Position numbers and translations under genes: made by a program. The notes beneath the pieces were generated by a model. That model ran no database searches. It worked only from the letters and a program-made list of their open reading frames with translations, and was not told where the DNA came from. Shown here piece after piece: positions 22,530 to 26,589 of a stretch of DNA of 64,000 nucleotides. Each line of letters begins with the position of its first letter. Within the stretch, counting starts at the first letter, position 1. The DNA is from an uncultured Pelagibacteraceae bacterium (GTDB lineage Bacteria; Pseudomonadota; Alphaproteobacteria; Pelagibacterales; Pelagibacteraceae), in NCBI GenBank assembly GCA_902604245.1, contig CACKXQ010000001.1:1-64000 (forward strand). Reading direction: 5' to 3'.

Positions 22530-23654
22530 TTAGATTGATATTTTTTGATCTTTAAACCAATTGTTTATAATGAGAAATTCATGCAATGAAATTCCTTTTT
22601 GAGTATCGTGAACAAATATTTGATCTTTAATGCCTTCCTTATTGTTTTCTAAGTCAAATTTCCTTTCATTATTTGACCATTTCTTTGGGAAACTCATCAA
22701 TTCAGATTCTTTTTTATAAATTTTCTTATATTCTGGATATTTTATTGAATATTCATGGCAACCACGTTTACTTTCAACAGTAAAATTATCTAATAAAGTC
22801 TTAAAAACTTTTTTTGTTTTTTTCTCAACATCAAGAACTTGTTGTAAACTTGTACAATATATTATACTTTTAAATACGTCTTCATTTGTTCTTTTGTCAA
22901 TCATATTTTTTCTATTAAAATTATTAAAAAATTCAATTTTATCAAAAATTAAAGAAACTTTTAATAAATCAAAAAAATTTTTAGTCTCCACAACTACTTT
23001 AAAACATCCAAAGCAATATTCAGGAATTGTATTGTATTTAAAAAAGATTGATTTATGTCTTTCGCAATTAAGAAAAATAGATTTTTTTCGAAAAATTTGT
23101 ACCTTATTGTACGTTAAATCAGCTAAGTTTTTCGAAACAATTTTTTTGCACTTTTTAAAATAGTCTATTATATGACTGTCTGATATTTTTTTAGTAAAAT
23201 CTATTTTACAAGGGATATTAAATATTTTTTTGTTCAAATCAAATATTTCATTTTCCTTGTAATTATCAGGTTTGTAGTAAGATAATAATTCAATAATTTT
23301 ATCCCTAGCAAGTTTATAATCTTTTTTAATGTTTAAAGCTTTTACAAAACAATCATAGGATTTTTTTAAATCTTTAGTGTTAAAATAAACTAGACCTAAA
23401 TTGTAATATGCTGTTTGGTAATTAGGATTAATTTTAATGGCAGTTTCAAAATCAAAAATTGCCTGTTTCAAGTCATTCAACCTAAAGTTAATTAATCCAA
23501 TAATATTATGGAATTGTGGCATATTACTTAAATTAGGTGCCTTTGATCTGTTATAATTAGCTTCCAGTAATGCTTCTTTTAGTGATTTTGTATTATAACT
23601 AATTATAATTTTATTTAATTGATCTTGGTCATTTTTATCTGTTGAAAAACTCAT
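22530..23654 (-). CDS. TPR protein with a Cys/His-containing C-terminal domain
   Basis: A 374-residue protein. Residues of about 45-120 are tetratricopeptide repeats (FHNIIGLINFRLNDLKQAIF, YQTAYYNLGLVYFNTKDLKKS). The C-terminal 220 residues form a domain with a possible metal cluster, C197-x2-H200 and C214-x2-C217 (NCERH, EYCFGCFKV), and later C267 and C299-H300. I have a sense of similar TPR proteins in marine bacteria but cannot name a function. It sits just left of the tRNA-Gly insertion. Confidence 0.75.
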   Translation of the reverse strand: MSFSTDKNDQDQLNKIIISYNTKSLKEALLEANYNRSKAPNLSNMPQFHNIIGLINFRLNDLKQAIFDFETAIKINPNYQTAYYNLGLVYFNTKDLKKSYDCFVKALNIKKDYKLARDKIIELLSYYKPDNYKENEIFDLNKKIFNIPCKIDFTKKISDSHIIDYFKKCKKIVSKNLADLTYNKVQIFRKKSIFLNCERHKSIFFKYNTIPEYCFGCFKVVVETKNFFDLLKVSLIFDKIEFFNNFNRKNMIDKRTNEDVFKSIIYCTSLQQVLDVEKKTKKVFKTLLDNFTVESKRGCHEYSIKYPEYKKIYKKESELMSFPKKWSNNERKFDLENNKEGIKDQIFVHDTQKGISLHEFLIINNWFKDQKISI

Positions 23655-23717: not shown

Positions 23718-23792
23718 TGGAGCGGGCAATGGGACTCGAACCCACGACCTTCTCGTTGGCAACGAGACGCTCTACCACTGAGCTATGCCCGC
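23718..23792 (-). tRNA. tRNA-Gly(GCC)
   Basis: The minus strand folds as a complete cloverleaf. The 7-bp acceptor is GCGGGCA/TGCCCGC; the D stem is GCTC/GAGC; the anticodon stem TCTCG/CGAGA encloses loop TTGCCAA with anticodon GCC; the T arm has the TTCGAGT loop; the discriminator is T, and CCA is encoded. Its 5' half (41 bp, 23752-23792) is repeated exactly at 24850-24890. No convincing promoter lies immediately upstream, so it may be read from the island side. Confidence 0.97.
23752..23792 (-). repeat. 41-bp direct repeat, copy 1 (core within intact tRNA-Gly)
   Basis: This is the 5' half of tRNA-Gly, from the acceptor to the 3' strand of the anticodon stem. It matches 24850-24890 perfectly in the same orientation. 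Its boundary at the anticodon stem-loop is a typical crossover point for tyrosine recombinases in tRNA genes. I read it as the core of a left attachment junction. Confidence 0.8.
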
Positions 23793-23865
23793 TTGTTCTA
23801 TAAGTGTTGAAACTATTAGCTTTTTAAAAATTAAGCAAGAGGCAAAATGATTAGAATTGGAGATT

Positions 23866-23891
23866 AACTGTGGCCGTAAGTGTGGCCGAAA
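23866..23891 (+). repeat. 26-bp direct repeat with two TGTGGCCG boxes, copy A
   Basis: Contains TGTGGCCG at 23869-23876 and 23881-23888, a 12-bp period, within a 26-bp block that recurs at 24770-24795 with one mismatch. It lies 73 bases inside the tRNA core. The GC-rich boxes stand out in this AT-rich background. The layout resembles integrase arm-type sites, but that role is inferred. Confidence 0.75.
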
Positions 23892-23903
23892 TCTTTTTAG
23901 TTA

Positions 23904-24092
23904 TTAGTTCAGTGATCTTTTTGTAATTACTATTTCAACAACTTTACAACTATCTTCTGAATAATATTTGATATCTATATCGTCTTTCTCTTGCAAATTT
24001 TGAGGGTCTCCTAAAATATCAATCTCAAAATATTTGATCTCTTCATAAGGTGTGGTGGGACTAAATTTTTTAATATATTTATATTTCATCAA
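23904..24092 (-). CDS. Hypothetical protein (62 aa), island cargo
   Basis: A 62-residue soluble protein rich in charged and aromatic residues (KYFEIDILGDP, EDSCKVVEIVITKRSLN). I recognise no domain. Its start overlaps the upstream 124-residue gene by 4 bases, which supports it as a real, translationally coupled gene. It is the last cargo gene before the inner repeat and tRNA-Gly. Confidence 0.5.
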   Translation of the reverse strand: MMKYKYIKKFSPTTPYEEIKYFEIDILGDPQNLQEKDDIDIKYYSEDSCKVVEIVITKRSLN

Positions 24093-24463
24093 TTATGAAG
24101 TTTAATTAAATCAAGCTCATCTATAATTCCTAGTTCACATTTATAAGTAAATTTTTGCACTACATCCGCCTGTTGACGCTCTTTAGTCATCACATAAGTG
24201 TTTCTATTAAGTTTCCACGTTTCAAAACCTGCAAACCAAATCATGTAATTTTCATTTACTTTTATTCTTTCTTTTGGTATTTCAAAAGCCCAAGATTTCC
24301 ATTTTATTGAATAAAATTTTAAAGAATTATTTTTTAGTTCCCATATTTCATCATATCCATTTTTATTATCTATACTTTTACAATGTAGTATATTTATATT
24401 TTCTGATTTCGCTAAGTTTTGTAACAGTACTAAAATTATTATTAAAAATAATAGTTTGTTCAT
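24089..24463 (-). CDS. Secreted hypothetical protein (124 aa), island cargo
   Basis: A 124-residue protein with a signal peptide over about residues 1-20 (KLLFLIIILVLLQNLAKS). A small beta-rich mature domain follows (ILHCKSIDNKNGYDEIWELKNNSLKFYSI) with two cysteines, in HCKS and KCEL, that could form a disulfide. It is probably periplasmic or surface exposed. No family is recognised. It lies one base after the 87-residue gene and overlaps the 62-residue gene, so the three read as one operon. Confidence 0.6.
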   Translation of the reverse strand: MNKLLFLIIILVLLQNLAKSENINILHCKSIDNKNGYDEIWELKNNSLKFYSIKWKSWAFEIPKERIKVNENYMIWFAGFETWKLNRNTYVMTKERQQADVVQKFTYKCELGIIDELDLIKLHN

Positions 24464-24464
24464 C

Positions 24465-24728
24465 TTAATTAGTCACATTATAACATATATGCCCATCAGC
24501 AAACATTGCATCAAGCTCTACTACACATGACACAATTTTAGTATTTTTAGTAAATGTATATAACATTATTCTTGGGCCTTCGCTTTCAATAGGAATCACA
24601 TTGTGAAGCTTGTAACCTTCATTTACTAAATCTTTCGGTTGAATATTGGGTAGCTTGTATTTTTCATCTATCGCATTAGAGGTAGTGAGTAAAAAGTTAG
24701 TCATAAAAACTATAAGTAAAATTCGCAT
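24465..24728 (-). CDS. Secreted hypothetical protein (87 aa), island cargo
   Basis: An 87-residue protein with a signal peptide over residues 1-19 (RILLIVFMTNFLLTTSNA). A short mature part has two cysteines (VSCVVELDAMFADGHICYNV), suggesting a disulfide in the periplasm. No family is recognised. It is the first cargo gene in transcription order and could be read from the canonical promoter at 24902-24930 through the tRNA fragment. Confidence 0.58.
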   Translation of the reverse strand: MRILLIVFMTNFLLTTSNAIDEKYKLPNIQPKDLVNEGYKLHNVIPIESEGPRIMLYTFTKNTKIVSCVVELDAMFADGHICYNVTN

Positions 24729-24769
24729 GCTTAAATTTATTAATTTGTTGTGTTAAAAATATGATTATC

Positions 24770-24795
24770 AACTGTGGCCGTCAGTGTGGCCGAAA
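24770..24795 (+). repeat. 26-bp direct repeat with two TGTGGCCG boxes, copy B
   Basis: The second copy of the 26-bp block, identical to 23866-23891 except for A to C in the 4-base spacer. The boxes are at 24773-24780 and 24785-24792. It lies 54 bases inside the right tRNA-Gly fragment and in the same orientation as copy A. Confidence 0.75.
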
Positions 24796-24849
24796 ACATT
24801 TACATGTCGAATAAGGATTGATTAGTCTTGCAAAAGGAACGTGGACTAC

Positions 24850-24890
24850 CTCGTTGGCAACGAGACGCTCTACCACTGAGCTATGCCCGC
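24850..24890 (-). repeat. tRNA-Gly 5'-half fragment (41-bp repeat, copy 2)
   Basis: An exact copy of the first 41 bases of tRNA-Gly on the minus strand, ending in the anticodon stem. The sequence beyond it does not form a T arm or acceptor strand, so it cannot be a functional tRNA. Weak resemblance of the next 20 bases to the tRNA variable region and T arm leaves open a decayed full copy. It is the right-hand core junction of the putative element. Confidence 0.85.
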
Positions 24891-24901
24891 CTAATAGACT
24901 T

Positions 24902-24930
24902 ATTATAATTAGCGTGTTTTTGAATTGCAA
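24902..24930 (-). promoter_or_regulatory. Canonical promoter in front of the tRNA-Gly fragment
   Basis: On the minus strand, TTGCAA (24925-24930) and a perfect TATAAT (24902-24907) are separated by 17 bases. The -10 lies 11 bases before the tRNA fragment, which is ideal for tRNA transcription. It is probably the original tRNA-Gly promoter, now separated from the intact gene by the insertion. Confidence 0.7.
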
Positions 24931-24945
24931 GAAGTATTAAAAAAT

Positions 24946-26589
24946 TTAAAATTTAATCTGATTATTTTTCAAAATATTTTGCATAGGCTTAAGGTAATCA
25001 CTATATTTTTCCCATTGTTTTGATGTATTTTTTTTAATTTTATCTCTAACCTGATTAAAAGATGCAGTTTTAACTACTCTATGAGTCTTTTCATAATTTC
25101 TTAACTCATCTTCCCAATCTAAGTTCAATTTTAATAGAATATTTTTTGTTTGTAATTCGAAATCTTGTACAAAATCTTCATAATTTATATTTATGATTTG
25201 ATTTTTAAATTTTTTAAACCAAAATTTCATTAAGTCGTTATACAAAATAAAATATTTAGCCATATCTTCTTGGCTTAAACTAAAATCAAGTCCATTATCA
25301 ACAAATAATGTCTTATAATTTGACCAACAAACTGCCATAGGATTTCTATCTATATGAATGATTTTCGCTTCTGGAAAAGCATTAACAATATAACCTATCC
25401 ATCTACAATTAAGTGGAGTCTTGTCAATTATGTATGGTTTTTCGGAAATTTTTGATAAATTTTTATAATAATAATTTCTAATTTCAGTAAAGTAATATTT
25501 TGTATCTTTTGGTTTTATTAAACCCAACTGATTTATAATTTTCTCTAGATAATTTAGCTCTCCAGCTCCATGAATTTTTGAATGTGTTGATAAAATTTGC
25601 TCCAATAAAGAGGTTCCTGACCTTGGCATACCAAGTATAAAAATTGGTTTACTTTTAATTCCATCGCTAAATTTTAAATTAAAATTGGCAGTATTCTCAA
25701 AAAAATCTTTGATATTTTTATATTTGTCTTGTTGTTTTAAGAGGGAGAATTTTGTAATTTCTTTTTTTATTAAATTTACTTTTACTAAATAGTTAAAACC
25801 TAAGTCATTATTTTTTTGATCAAAATAACATTTACTTAAAGCATCAAAAATTAGAATTTTTTCATGATTATTTAATTTATCGAAATTTAAATTTTGAAAA
25901 TGTTTAAATAACTTATCGTTCTTATCTATTTTAGTTACACTGACATAATTTCTAAAACTTGGGATATTTGATTGATCTAATTTTAACACTTTTTCAAAGT
26001 AATTTTTTCCCTCTGATATATTTCCTAAAAATAGATAGGCTGATCCTAGATTGTAAAGAGTTTTGATATGATTCTTATCAAACTGTAATAATTTTTTATA
26101 TATTTTAATTAAATCCTCAAATTTATTATTTTCTTGATATATTGATGCGAGGTTAAAGAGTGCTTCTATATTATTATCTTTTAACTTGATGGCCATTTTA
26201 AAACATTCAATTGCCTTATCTGGTTTATTTAAAGATTTTTTTATATTACCTAAATTATTAAATGCCTCTGAAAAATTTGGATTTAATTCAATTGCTTTTT
26301 CAAATGAAGCAGATGCTTCAGAATATTTTTTTAAATTTTTGAGTACGTTTCCATAAATATAATATATTTCGTGTGTTTTTTTTAAAGTTAATAATTTCTC
26401 AAAGTATTTTTCTGCATTCAAAAATTTTTGAAGATTTATAGAGCTTAAACCTAATAAATAAATTAGTTGAGTATCATTAGATTTTTTTTTAATTAACTTT
26501 TCTCCAAATTTAATTACATCTTGATACTTTTTTTTGTTATATAACTCTAAAATTTTCTGTTTTTTTTTATCAAAAAAATTTGAAATCAT
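24946..26589 (-). CDS. TPR-repeat sulfotransferase-family protein
   Basis: A 547-residue protein. Residues of about 40-270 carry tandem tetratricopeptide repeats (SEAFNNLGNIKKSLNKPDKA, IEALFNLASIYQENNKFEDL). A sulfotransferase domain follows, with the PAPS loop GMPRSGTS at 320-327, GELNYLEKI, and IIHIDRNPMAVCWSNYK for 3'-phosphate binding. It is a paralogue of the 514-residue protein at 11074. It flanks the right side of the tRNA-Gly insertion and starts close to the divergent Lon-N gene. The acceptor substrate is unknown. Confidence 0.88.
   Translation of the reverse strand: MISNFFDKKKQKILELYNKKKYQDVIKFGEKLIKKKSNDTQLIYLLGLSSINLQKFLNAEKYFEKLLTLKKTHEIYYIYGNVLKNLKKYSEASASFEKAIELNPNFSEAFNNLGNIKKSLNKPDKAIECFKMAIKLKDNNIEALFNLASIYQENNKFEDLIKIYKKLLQFDKNHIKTLYNLGSAYLFLGNISEGKNYFEKVLKLDQSNIPSFRNYVSVTKIDKNDKLFKHFQNLNFDKLNNHEKILIFDALSKCYFDQKNNDLGFNYLVKVNLIKKEITKFSLLKQQDKYKNIKDFFENTANFNLKFSDGIKSKPIFILGMPRSGTSLLEQILSTHSKIHGAGELNYLEKIINQLGLIKPKDTKYYFTEIRNYYYKNLSKISEKPYIIDKTPLNCRWIGYIVNAFPEAKIIHIDRNPMAVCWSNYKTLFVDNGLDFSLSQEDMAKYFILYNDLMKFWFKKFKNQIININYEDFVQDFELQTKNILLKLNLDWEDELRNYEKTHRVVKTASFNQVRDKIKKNTSKQWEKYSDYLKPMQNILKNNQIKF

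Follow-up and report, generated by a model that had tools for sequence, protein, structure and literature searches.

Islands that keep attachment (att) repeats but lack an integrase are known as cis-mobilizable elements (CIMEs; PMC5704250), and 15 ssrA islands without an integration module, bounded by repeats of the 3' end of that gene, have been reported in Dehalococcoides (PMC3146451). In the portions of these accounts available to us, such islands are described either as products of decay or as possible CIMEs that travel along with neighbouring islands. Small cassettes bounded by partial tRNA genes are also documented at several tRNA hot spots in two further groups of streamlined aquatic bacteria, the Actinomarinales (PMC7771536) and the Methylophilaceae (PMC10872708), the repeat in the latter being the last 20 bp of tRNA-Lys. 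The word 'integrase' never occurs in the main text on the Actinomarinales, and the available parts of the two accounts mention neither a helper nor arm sites nor a target in the 5' half. Such a target is used in archaea, where pTN3-like integrases have a tRNA 5' half as attB and the upstream DNA of the restored gene comes from the element (PMC8371274). Here we describe a bacterial counterpart in a 64,000-nucleotide stretch of an uncultured Pelagibacteraceae bacterium of the SAR11 group (assembly GCA_902604245.1, contig CACKXQ010000001.1, positions 1 to 64,000; hereafter the window), in which positions 23718-24890 hold a roughly 1-kb element without an integrase at tRNA-Gly(GCC). We consider it probable that this is a non-autonomous, integrase-less cassette recombined into the tRNA gene in trans by a satellite-type integrase.

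The tRNA-Gly(GCC) is the only tRNA that ARAGORN finds in the whole window, and the element is laid out around it as follows.

23718-23792, minus strand: intact tRNA-Gly(GCC), CCA encoded, ARAGORN and Rfam agreeing
23752-23792, minus strand: attachment core of 41 bp inside the intact tRNA-Gly
23793-23848, minus strand: tRNA upstream region supplied by the element in place of the original, with up to 96% identity to DNA preceding tRNA-Gly or its fragment in other SAR11 genomes
23869-23888, minus strand: right-end arm-type repeat pair CGGCCACACTTACGGCCACA
24773-24792, minus strand: left-end arm-type repeat pair CGGCCACACTGACGGCCACA
24774-24890, minus strand: left end shared with the integrase-bearing element of AG-891-D20, 117/117
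24850-24890, minus strand: far junction, where the original tRNA gene's 5' half (41 bp) now lies displaced
24891-24932, minus strand: displaced original promoter-like region, with TTGCAA-17-TATAAT at 24930-24902 (10/12 consensus bases)

The initial annotation, made from the sequence alone, had reported an intact tRNA-Gly, three short open reading frames (ORFs) and a perfect, identically oriented copy of the 5' half of the tRNA, all of which we confirm: the two 41-bp copies are identical at 41/41 positions, lie 1098 bp apart from start to start, and the fragment sits upstream of the tRNA. Its placing of the end of identity in the anticodon stem is likewise borne out, one base short of the end of the 3' strand (stem assigned by hand). 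It had overlooked a second direct repeat, TGTGGCCGT[A/C]AGTGTGGCCG, which occurs just inside both element ends and was matched in 0/100 shuffles. Each of these arm-type repeats comprises two 7-bp units spaced 11 bp apart, and two short units so spaced are the layout typical of integrase arm sites. Between its att sites the element holds no integrase or transfer genes, as in the CIMEs and the Dehalococcoides islands, with which it also shares retained attL and attR, a tRNA or tmRNA site and perhaps movement with or by another element; its core and arms match in sequence those of the AG-891-D20 element, whose integrase may recognise them. The element has none of the integrase, primase and terminase genes of phage satellites, among which VEIMEs and tycheposons are also named (PMC10803314), and no replication genes of its own; a tycheposon, given as cargo plus a tyrosine recombinase at a tRNA (PMC10872708), shares the tRNA site with the window element, which is without a related integrase. 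The direct tRNA repeats at its junctions argue against an integron gene cassette. The label 'satellite-like' in the initial annotation suits the integrase-bearing partners described below, and the window element is better termed a non-autonomous cassette.

The target is unusual, as had been suggested: attB corresponds to the 5' half of the tRNA gene, which after restoration would be joined to the upstream DNA of the element. According to a review (PMC8371274), in very few cases does a bacterial tRNA not retain its own promoter, and the 5'-half mode, which among archaeal integrases is confined to the pTN3-like ones, is seldom met with in bacteria. The present case, with its promoter region replaced, is real and rare. 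Over the 55 bp preceding the tRNA, the element shows 95-96% identity to the DNA found in other SAR11 genomes upstream of tRNA-Gly (G005) or of its fragment (AG-915-C03), and it therefore carries the kind of tRNA upstream region seen in other lineages. A consensus promoter scan found no match in this upstream region, and the scan overall did not exceed shuffles. By analogy with sister cassettes, the window tRNA-Gly would owe its 5' half to the element and its 3' half to the host. One full tRNA-Gly(GCC) match occurs in the window genome (assembly 76% complete) and one in the one-contig genome G012, and the gene hit by the insertion looks like the sole copy.

Using the 41-bp 5' half as a pattern with at most three mismatches, we found it in 304 of the 399 genomes of the genus, and twice in 17, including the window genome; the reversed-pattern control gave 0 in every row. 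In each of the 17 the two copies share a contig and a strand at a distance of 0.86 to 8.4 kb, and it is always the downstream one that is the full tRNA, the upstream one being the fragment. A related integrase is absent from 15 of these 17 elements and adjoins the fragment in the other two (G180 and G124), and integrase-less tRNA-Gly cassettes occur in 15/399 genomes. An exact scan for the fragment junction over 84,980 species (one genome each) returned 27 loci, all titled Pelagibacteraceae or Pelagibacterales; since the 17 genomes and 27 loci overlap, the counts are not additive. Four of the 27 carry a related integrase (L119, L127, L129 and L137) and the examined DNA of the other 23 has none, this DNA stopping short of the full tRNA in L119, L125, L127, L129, L137 and L138. 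Across these elements the ends are kept and the cargo differs, with six cargo types at tRNA-Gly.

1.65-1.69-kb cassette: choice-of-anchor I beta-propeller
861-bp cassette: prepilin-like protein
2.3-kb cassette: HATPase protein
2.3-kb cassette: CII-like regulator and other genes
3.9-kb cassette (AG-919-P14): PhnD-, PhnC- and PhnE-like proteins and a methyltransferase
Roughly 1-kb cassette: the three small genes of the window

In the AG-919-P14 cassette, PhnE scores above its NCBIfam cut-off, PhnC falls just under (265.6 vs 266.1 bits), and PhnD is under its equivalog cut-off and over the Pfam cut-off. This gene set at tRNA-Gly resembles phnCDEubiE, reported as the sole genes to meet a criterion for recent cross-order transfer in surface-ocean (GORG) cells and accompanied in Pelagibacterales by adjacent tRNA genes and tyrosine recombinases (PMC12416821). 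The cassette may represent the same phosphonate operon.

The commonest cassette has spread recently. Among 17 named cells with the 1.65-1.69-kb form, cassette identity ranges from 90.1 to 99.9% (median 96.7; 136 pairs), against a median of 72.2% (67.8-98.5) for the neighbouring downstream DNA in the 122 pairs with at least 300 bp aligned, and the cassette is the more alike in 122/122 of them. The cells AG-916-P21 and AG-910-M23, for instance, share 99.7% of the cassette and 67.8% of the neighbouring DNA; upstream DNA was comparable in 21 pairs only (median 77.4%). At these 17 loci the 3' half of tRNA-Gly depends on the host, with three haplotypes (11, 5 and 1), and the 5' half travels with the cassette together with the preceding promoter-like DNA, which would be the trace expected of site-specific insertion at the 5' half. 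Sister cassettes without an integrase are nearly identical across distant hosts, so that lack of the enzyme is no bar to spread. In this the SAR11 cassettes differ from the CIMEs and Dehalococcoides islands: nearly identical one-gene cassettes occur in many species, at the 5' half of the tRNA, and their arm sites match those of separate satellite-like elements.

Unoccupied sites exist among the relatives. Of 29 single-copy loci fetched, one proved to be half of a pair; 26 of the remaining 28 show one 5' half in up to 3 kb of DNA and no arm-like pair in the 130 bp upstream, by a pattern that misses some arm types. One of them, in a one-contig genome, has a LON-domain gene, the tRNA, a pterin dehydratase gene and purH in a row. 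Two single-copy loci (L022 and L031) carry right arms of the 1.65-kb type upstream and no fragment in the examined DNA, through a cut contig (L031) or a worn cassette. No empty site was found with the window's own flank at high identity, the flank being matched in 3/75 other genomes, at 67-69%. The initial annotation had asked for empty sites and alternative cargo between the same repeats and had set against them an old fixed duplication shared by all relatives; the six cargo types and the 26 sites without an element speak for the former and against the latter.

Elements between the same repeats that do carry an integrase provide a plausible enzyme. In the single amplified genome AG-891-D20, a 6.8-kb element has an integrase (PF00589) directly after its left end, plus a primase, and its left end is identical to that of the window over 117/117 bp (the 41-bp core and 76 bp more), diverging at the end of the second arm unit; the left end of a chimeric element in G120 diverges from AG-891-D20 a few bases later. 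With matching core and arms, the AG-891-D20 element is a candidate helper. At the site of the window cassette, AG-404-L13, the best match to the window flanks among the loci compared (93% upstream, 89% downstream), holds instead an integrase element with a terminase small subunit (PF03592). Three relatives from IMG/VR (L111, L192 and L193) are contigs whose two ends repeat each other exactly over 123, 99 and 55 bp, and we read them as circles of 5875, 6071 and 5878 bp. All three carry an integrase and an AAA_25 protein of 601-618 aa, along with a terminase small subunit that is confirmed as PF03592 in L111 and L193 and putative in L192, where the contig ends split it. The integrase frame of L111 continues over the contig join (317 aa), and the order there is right end, 41-bp core, left arms and integrase, that is, the attP form; the core of L192 and L193 is instead the 5' half of tRNA-Val(TAC), its anticodon read by eye. 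Partners such as G399, G400 and L111 have their own integrase and replication genes, and some resemble phage satellites of the PICI and PICMI kinds in combining integrase, primase or helicase and terminase small subunit in 5-7 kb (PMC10803314). The partners look like phage satellites, and the identical contig ends in IMG/VR are compatible with, though not proof of, packaging in helper-phage particles. Known phages were also considered as helpers: a search with the integrase in 50,697 phage records gave 94 matches, none reaching 60% identity (32.4% for the best of the matches listed), and that set thus holds no close relative of it.

The arm sites were compared as the best 20-mers shared by the left and right ends of 19 elements, with 300 shuffles each. 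The two arms of the window agree at 19/20 bp, equalled in 0/300 shuffles; among the other 18 elements, the agreement was matched by 0 or 1 shuffles in 10 and by 5 or 6 in 2. The best 20-mer begins 53-62 bp from the core in 14/19 elements, and CACA-N6-8-CACA is present in 12/16 left ends and 11/16 right ends, against 1/1006 control windows from element bodies and flanks. Judged by eye, the arm letters vary with the type of element (GGCCACA, GACACA, GGCACA, GGGACGCA and GGGATGCA) over a constant core and spacing, as would be expected of integrases with different arm specificities. The left arm of the window is matched 20/20 only by the AG-891-D20 element and the chimeric G120 element, and at most 16/20 by the other 16 left ends; its arm pattern recurs in 2/399 genomes of the genus, namely its own and G120. 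As a pointer to a helper phage the motif was rejected as chance: it matched 31 IMG/VR contigs, 30 of them with GC of at least 0.52 (the other 0.41), and the examined DNA of one holds an integrase relative, 28.5% identical and 8 kb from the motif.

With the anatomy, shared ends, alternative cargo, empty sites, spread of the sister cassettes and attP forms of the integrase elements all seen at sequence level, we infer action in trans and carriage between cells. A satellite-type integrase working in trans on a common core and arms is the simplest account of how the cassette most likely moves. A circular cassette would carry the 41-bp tRNA-Gly 5' half as attP core with two arm-type sites per side, along with a tRNA upstream region and the three cargo genes. 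A tyrosine integrase encoded by a satellite-type element of the AG-891-D20 type, whose core and arms are the same, would bind these sites in trans and recombine the circle with the tRNA gene. The product would be an intact tRNA in which the 5' half and upstream region of the cassette are joined to the 3' half of the host, the old 5' half and its promoter being left 1.06 kb upstream. Carriage from cell to cell might occur by joining the circle of a satellite, packaged by a phage by way of the satellite's terminase small subunit.

Several observations weigh against this account. The exact three-gene cassette occurs in 1/399 genomes, with no second instance, and its own mobility is therefore argued from its ends; how cassettes acquire satellite ends is left unexplained. 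No related integrase is found in the window genome at E<=1e-30 (76% complete assembly), and at that threshold relatives are rare in chromosomes, occurring in 13/399 genomes, three at 62-74% identity (one partial) and the rest at 30-49%. The core is not uniform, the copy in G324 differing in the last two bases and that in G124 extending 13 further. Agreement between left and right arms is weak in G399 (15/20, 16/300 shuffles), G400 (62/300) and G126 (61/300), is absent in L192 (133/300), L111 (180/300) and the chimeric G120 element (263/300), and in G172, one of the 10 well-supported cases, belongs to an inner repeat rather than the arms.

The strongest competitor, which we nevertheless think unlikely, is an immobile relic: a formerly complete satellite from which the integrase has been deleted, leaving a fixed fossil that keeps its ends. 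Apparent fossils do exist, as worn right arms of the window type lie upstream of a single tRNA-Gly in G392, G087, G054 and G302 and upstream of the fragment in G303, and the confinement of the three-gene cassette to one genome points the same way. The window insertion, however, looks recent, given its identical cores (41/41) and a left end identical to the element of another cell (117/117), and the integrase-less sisters, nearly identical across distant hosts, have spread all the same. Cassette movement by ordinary homologous recombination of DNA taken up by the cell, in which the tRNA would serve as a short stretch of anchoring homology and the arms would be incidental, would suit the variable flanking genes around tRNA-Gly and appears distinctly less probable still: the junctions fall at the core with host-specific DNA on both sides, the arm pairs keep a near-constant distance in most elements, and integrase-bearing elements use the same junction. 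An artefact of single-cell amplification or assembly is scarcely credible, for although isolate names mark the majority of the 27 related records as single-cell assemblies (some are labelled as metagenome-assembled genomes), the paired copies share contig and strand throughout, and separate assemblies have the same cassette between different flanks.

The worn-arm loci may represent cargo fixed by arm decay. A sulfotransferase-TPR gene adjoins the worn arms in G392 (by Pfam) and in G303, G054 and G302 (by similarity). The interval from the LON-domain gene to purH around tRNA-Gly is a hot spot with a variable number of TPR and TPR-sulfotransferase genes (window 22530-23654 and 24946-26589; L172-L189), some of which may be fixed former cargo.

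The same mode extends to a second gene. The tRNA-Val 5' half is matched in 212 of 300 genomes searched and is present twice in 8, of which G086, G097, G079 and G126 hold integrase-less cassettes with arm pairs; together with the tRNA-Val core of L192 and L193, these place the 5'-half mode at two tRNA genes. The remaining four were set aside: G038 and G241 have tandem tRNA copies, G053 a second, inverted tRNA gene, and G096 (L208) a larger, 8.8-kb element without the related integrase, with a different one (PF00589 and the arm-binding domain Arm-DNA-bind_3) and different end repeats TCTACGCA. Just past the left arms of the tRNA-Val cassettes lies AGAATCTCGTTAC in 4/4 left ends (L207, L209, L211 and L214), resembling AAGAATCTTGATTTG past the right arms of some satellites; the two are perhaps an accessory-factor site. 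We put at even chances a wider, genus-level exchange in SAR11, in which phage-satellite integrases of differing arm specificity would act on a common stock of integrase-less cassettes, each of one to a few genes, with tRNA-Gly and tRNA-Val 5' halves as sites, each insertion swapping the promoter and the cargo later becoming fixed by arm decay.

The cargo of the window itself comprises three small ORFs.

24465-24728, minus strand: ORF of 87 aa whose hydrophobic N-terminus resembles a signal peptide by eye; homologue in G197 at 70% aa identity
24089-24463, minus strand: ORF of 124 aa with an N-terminus that looks hydrophobic by eye; no homologue found
23904-24092, minus strand: ORF of 62 aa (61 from ATG); 66% aa homologue in G352

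The 87-aa and 62-aa ORFs are probably genuine genes, because homologues exist in other genomes of the genus; the 124-aa ORF has none among the loci searched there, and its predicted structure, beta-rich at low confidence (pLDDT 64), was not used. None of the three has a Pfam match above cut-off, a PHROG match better than E 0.03 or a PADLOC match, and the 87-aa and 124-aa proteins have no relatives in the phage records or viral contigs. In G352 (L178 2990-4339) the homologue of the 62-aa protein lies in a cassette-like stretch at tRNA-Ser(GGA) without a related integrase. The stretch contains a diverged copy of the tRNA that closes with an exact 3' repeat of 30 bp, and it has arm-like repeats of its own, ACGACAAGATGACGACAACG. 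The 62-aa cargo type thus appears to be common to different tRNA sites (tRNA-Gly and tRNA-Ser(GGA)). The 87-aa homologue in G197 (L177 1864-6043) has neighbours that look phage-like by eye (DNA methyltransferase-like and exonuclease-like), and the 6.5 kb examined there contains no tRNA.

Integrase-less tRNA cassettes are already known elsewhere, and the SAR11 5'-half form is a variant of them. Our search of the open literature, subscription papers being outside its scope, found no description of 5'-half cassettes in SAR11, and the available portions of two SAR11 papers (PMC2217521 and PMC7318151) contain no such cassettes.

The ends shared by cassettes and satellites suggest a common gene-swapping system among the most abundant bacteria of the sea. 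Gene exchange in SAR11 is high, and to our knowledge its vehicles are poorly known. The cassette offers a small, concrete unit with defined ends, a fixed site whose empty, occupied and excised states are readable in metagenomes, and a candidate recombinase. It also provides a bacterial case of the rare 5'-half target, in which each insertion would replace the upstream region of what is apparently the sole tRNA-Gly(GCC) gene. More broadly, the findings suggest satellites as common carriers of host genes and offer a mechanism for the recent, ecologically important transfer of a phosphonate uptake operon; if the genus-wide exchange is true, the operon of PMC12416821 would be one cargo of SAR11 cassette exchange.
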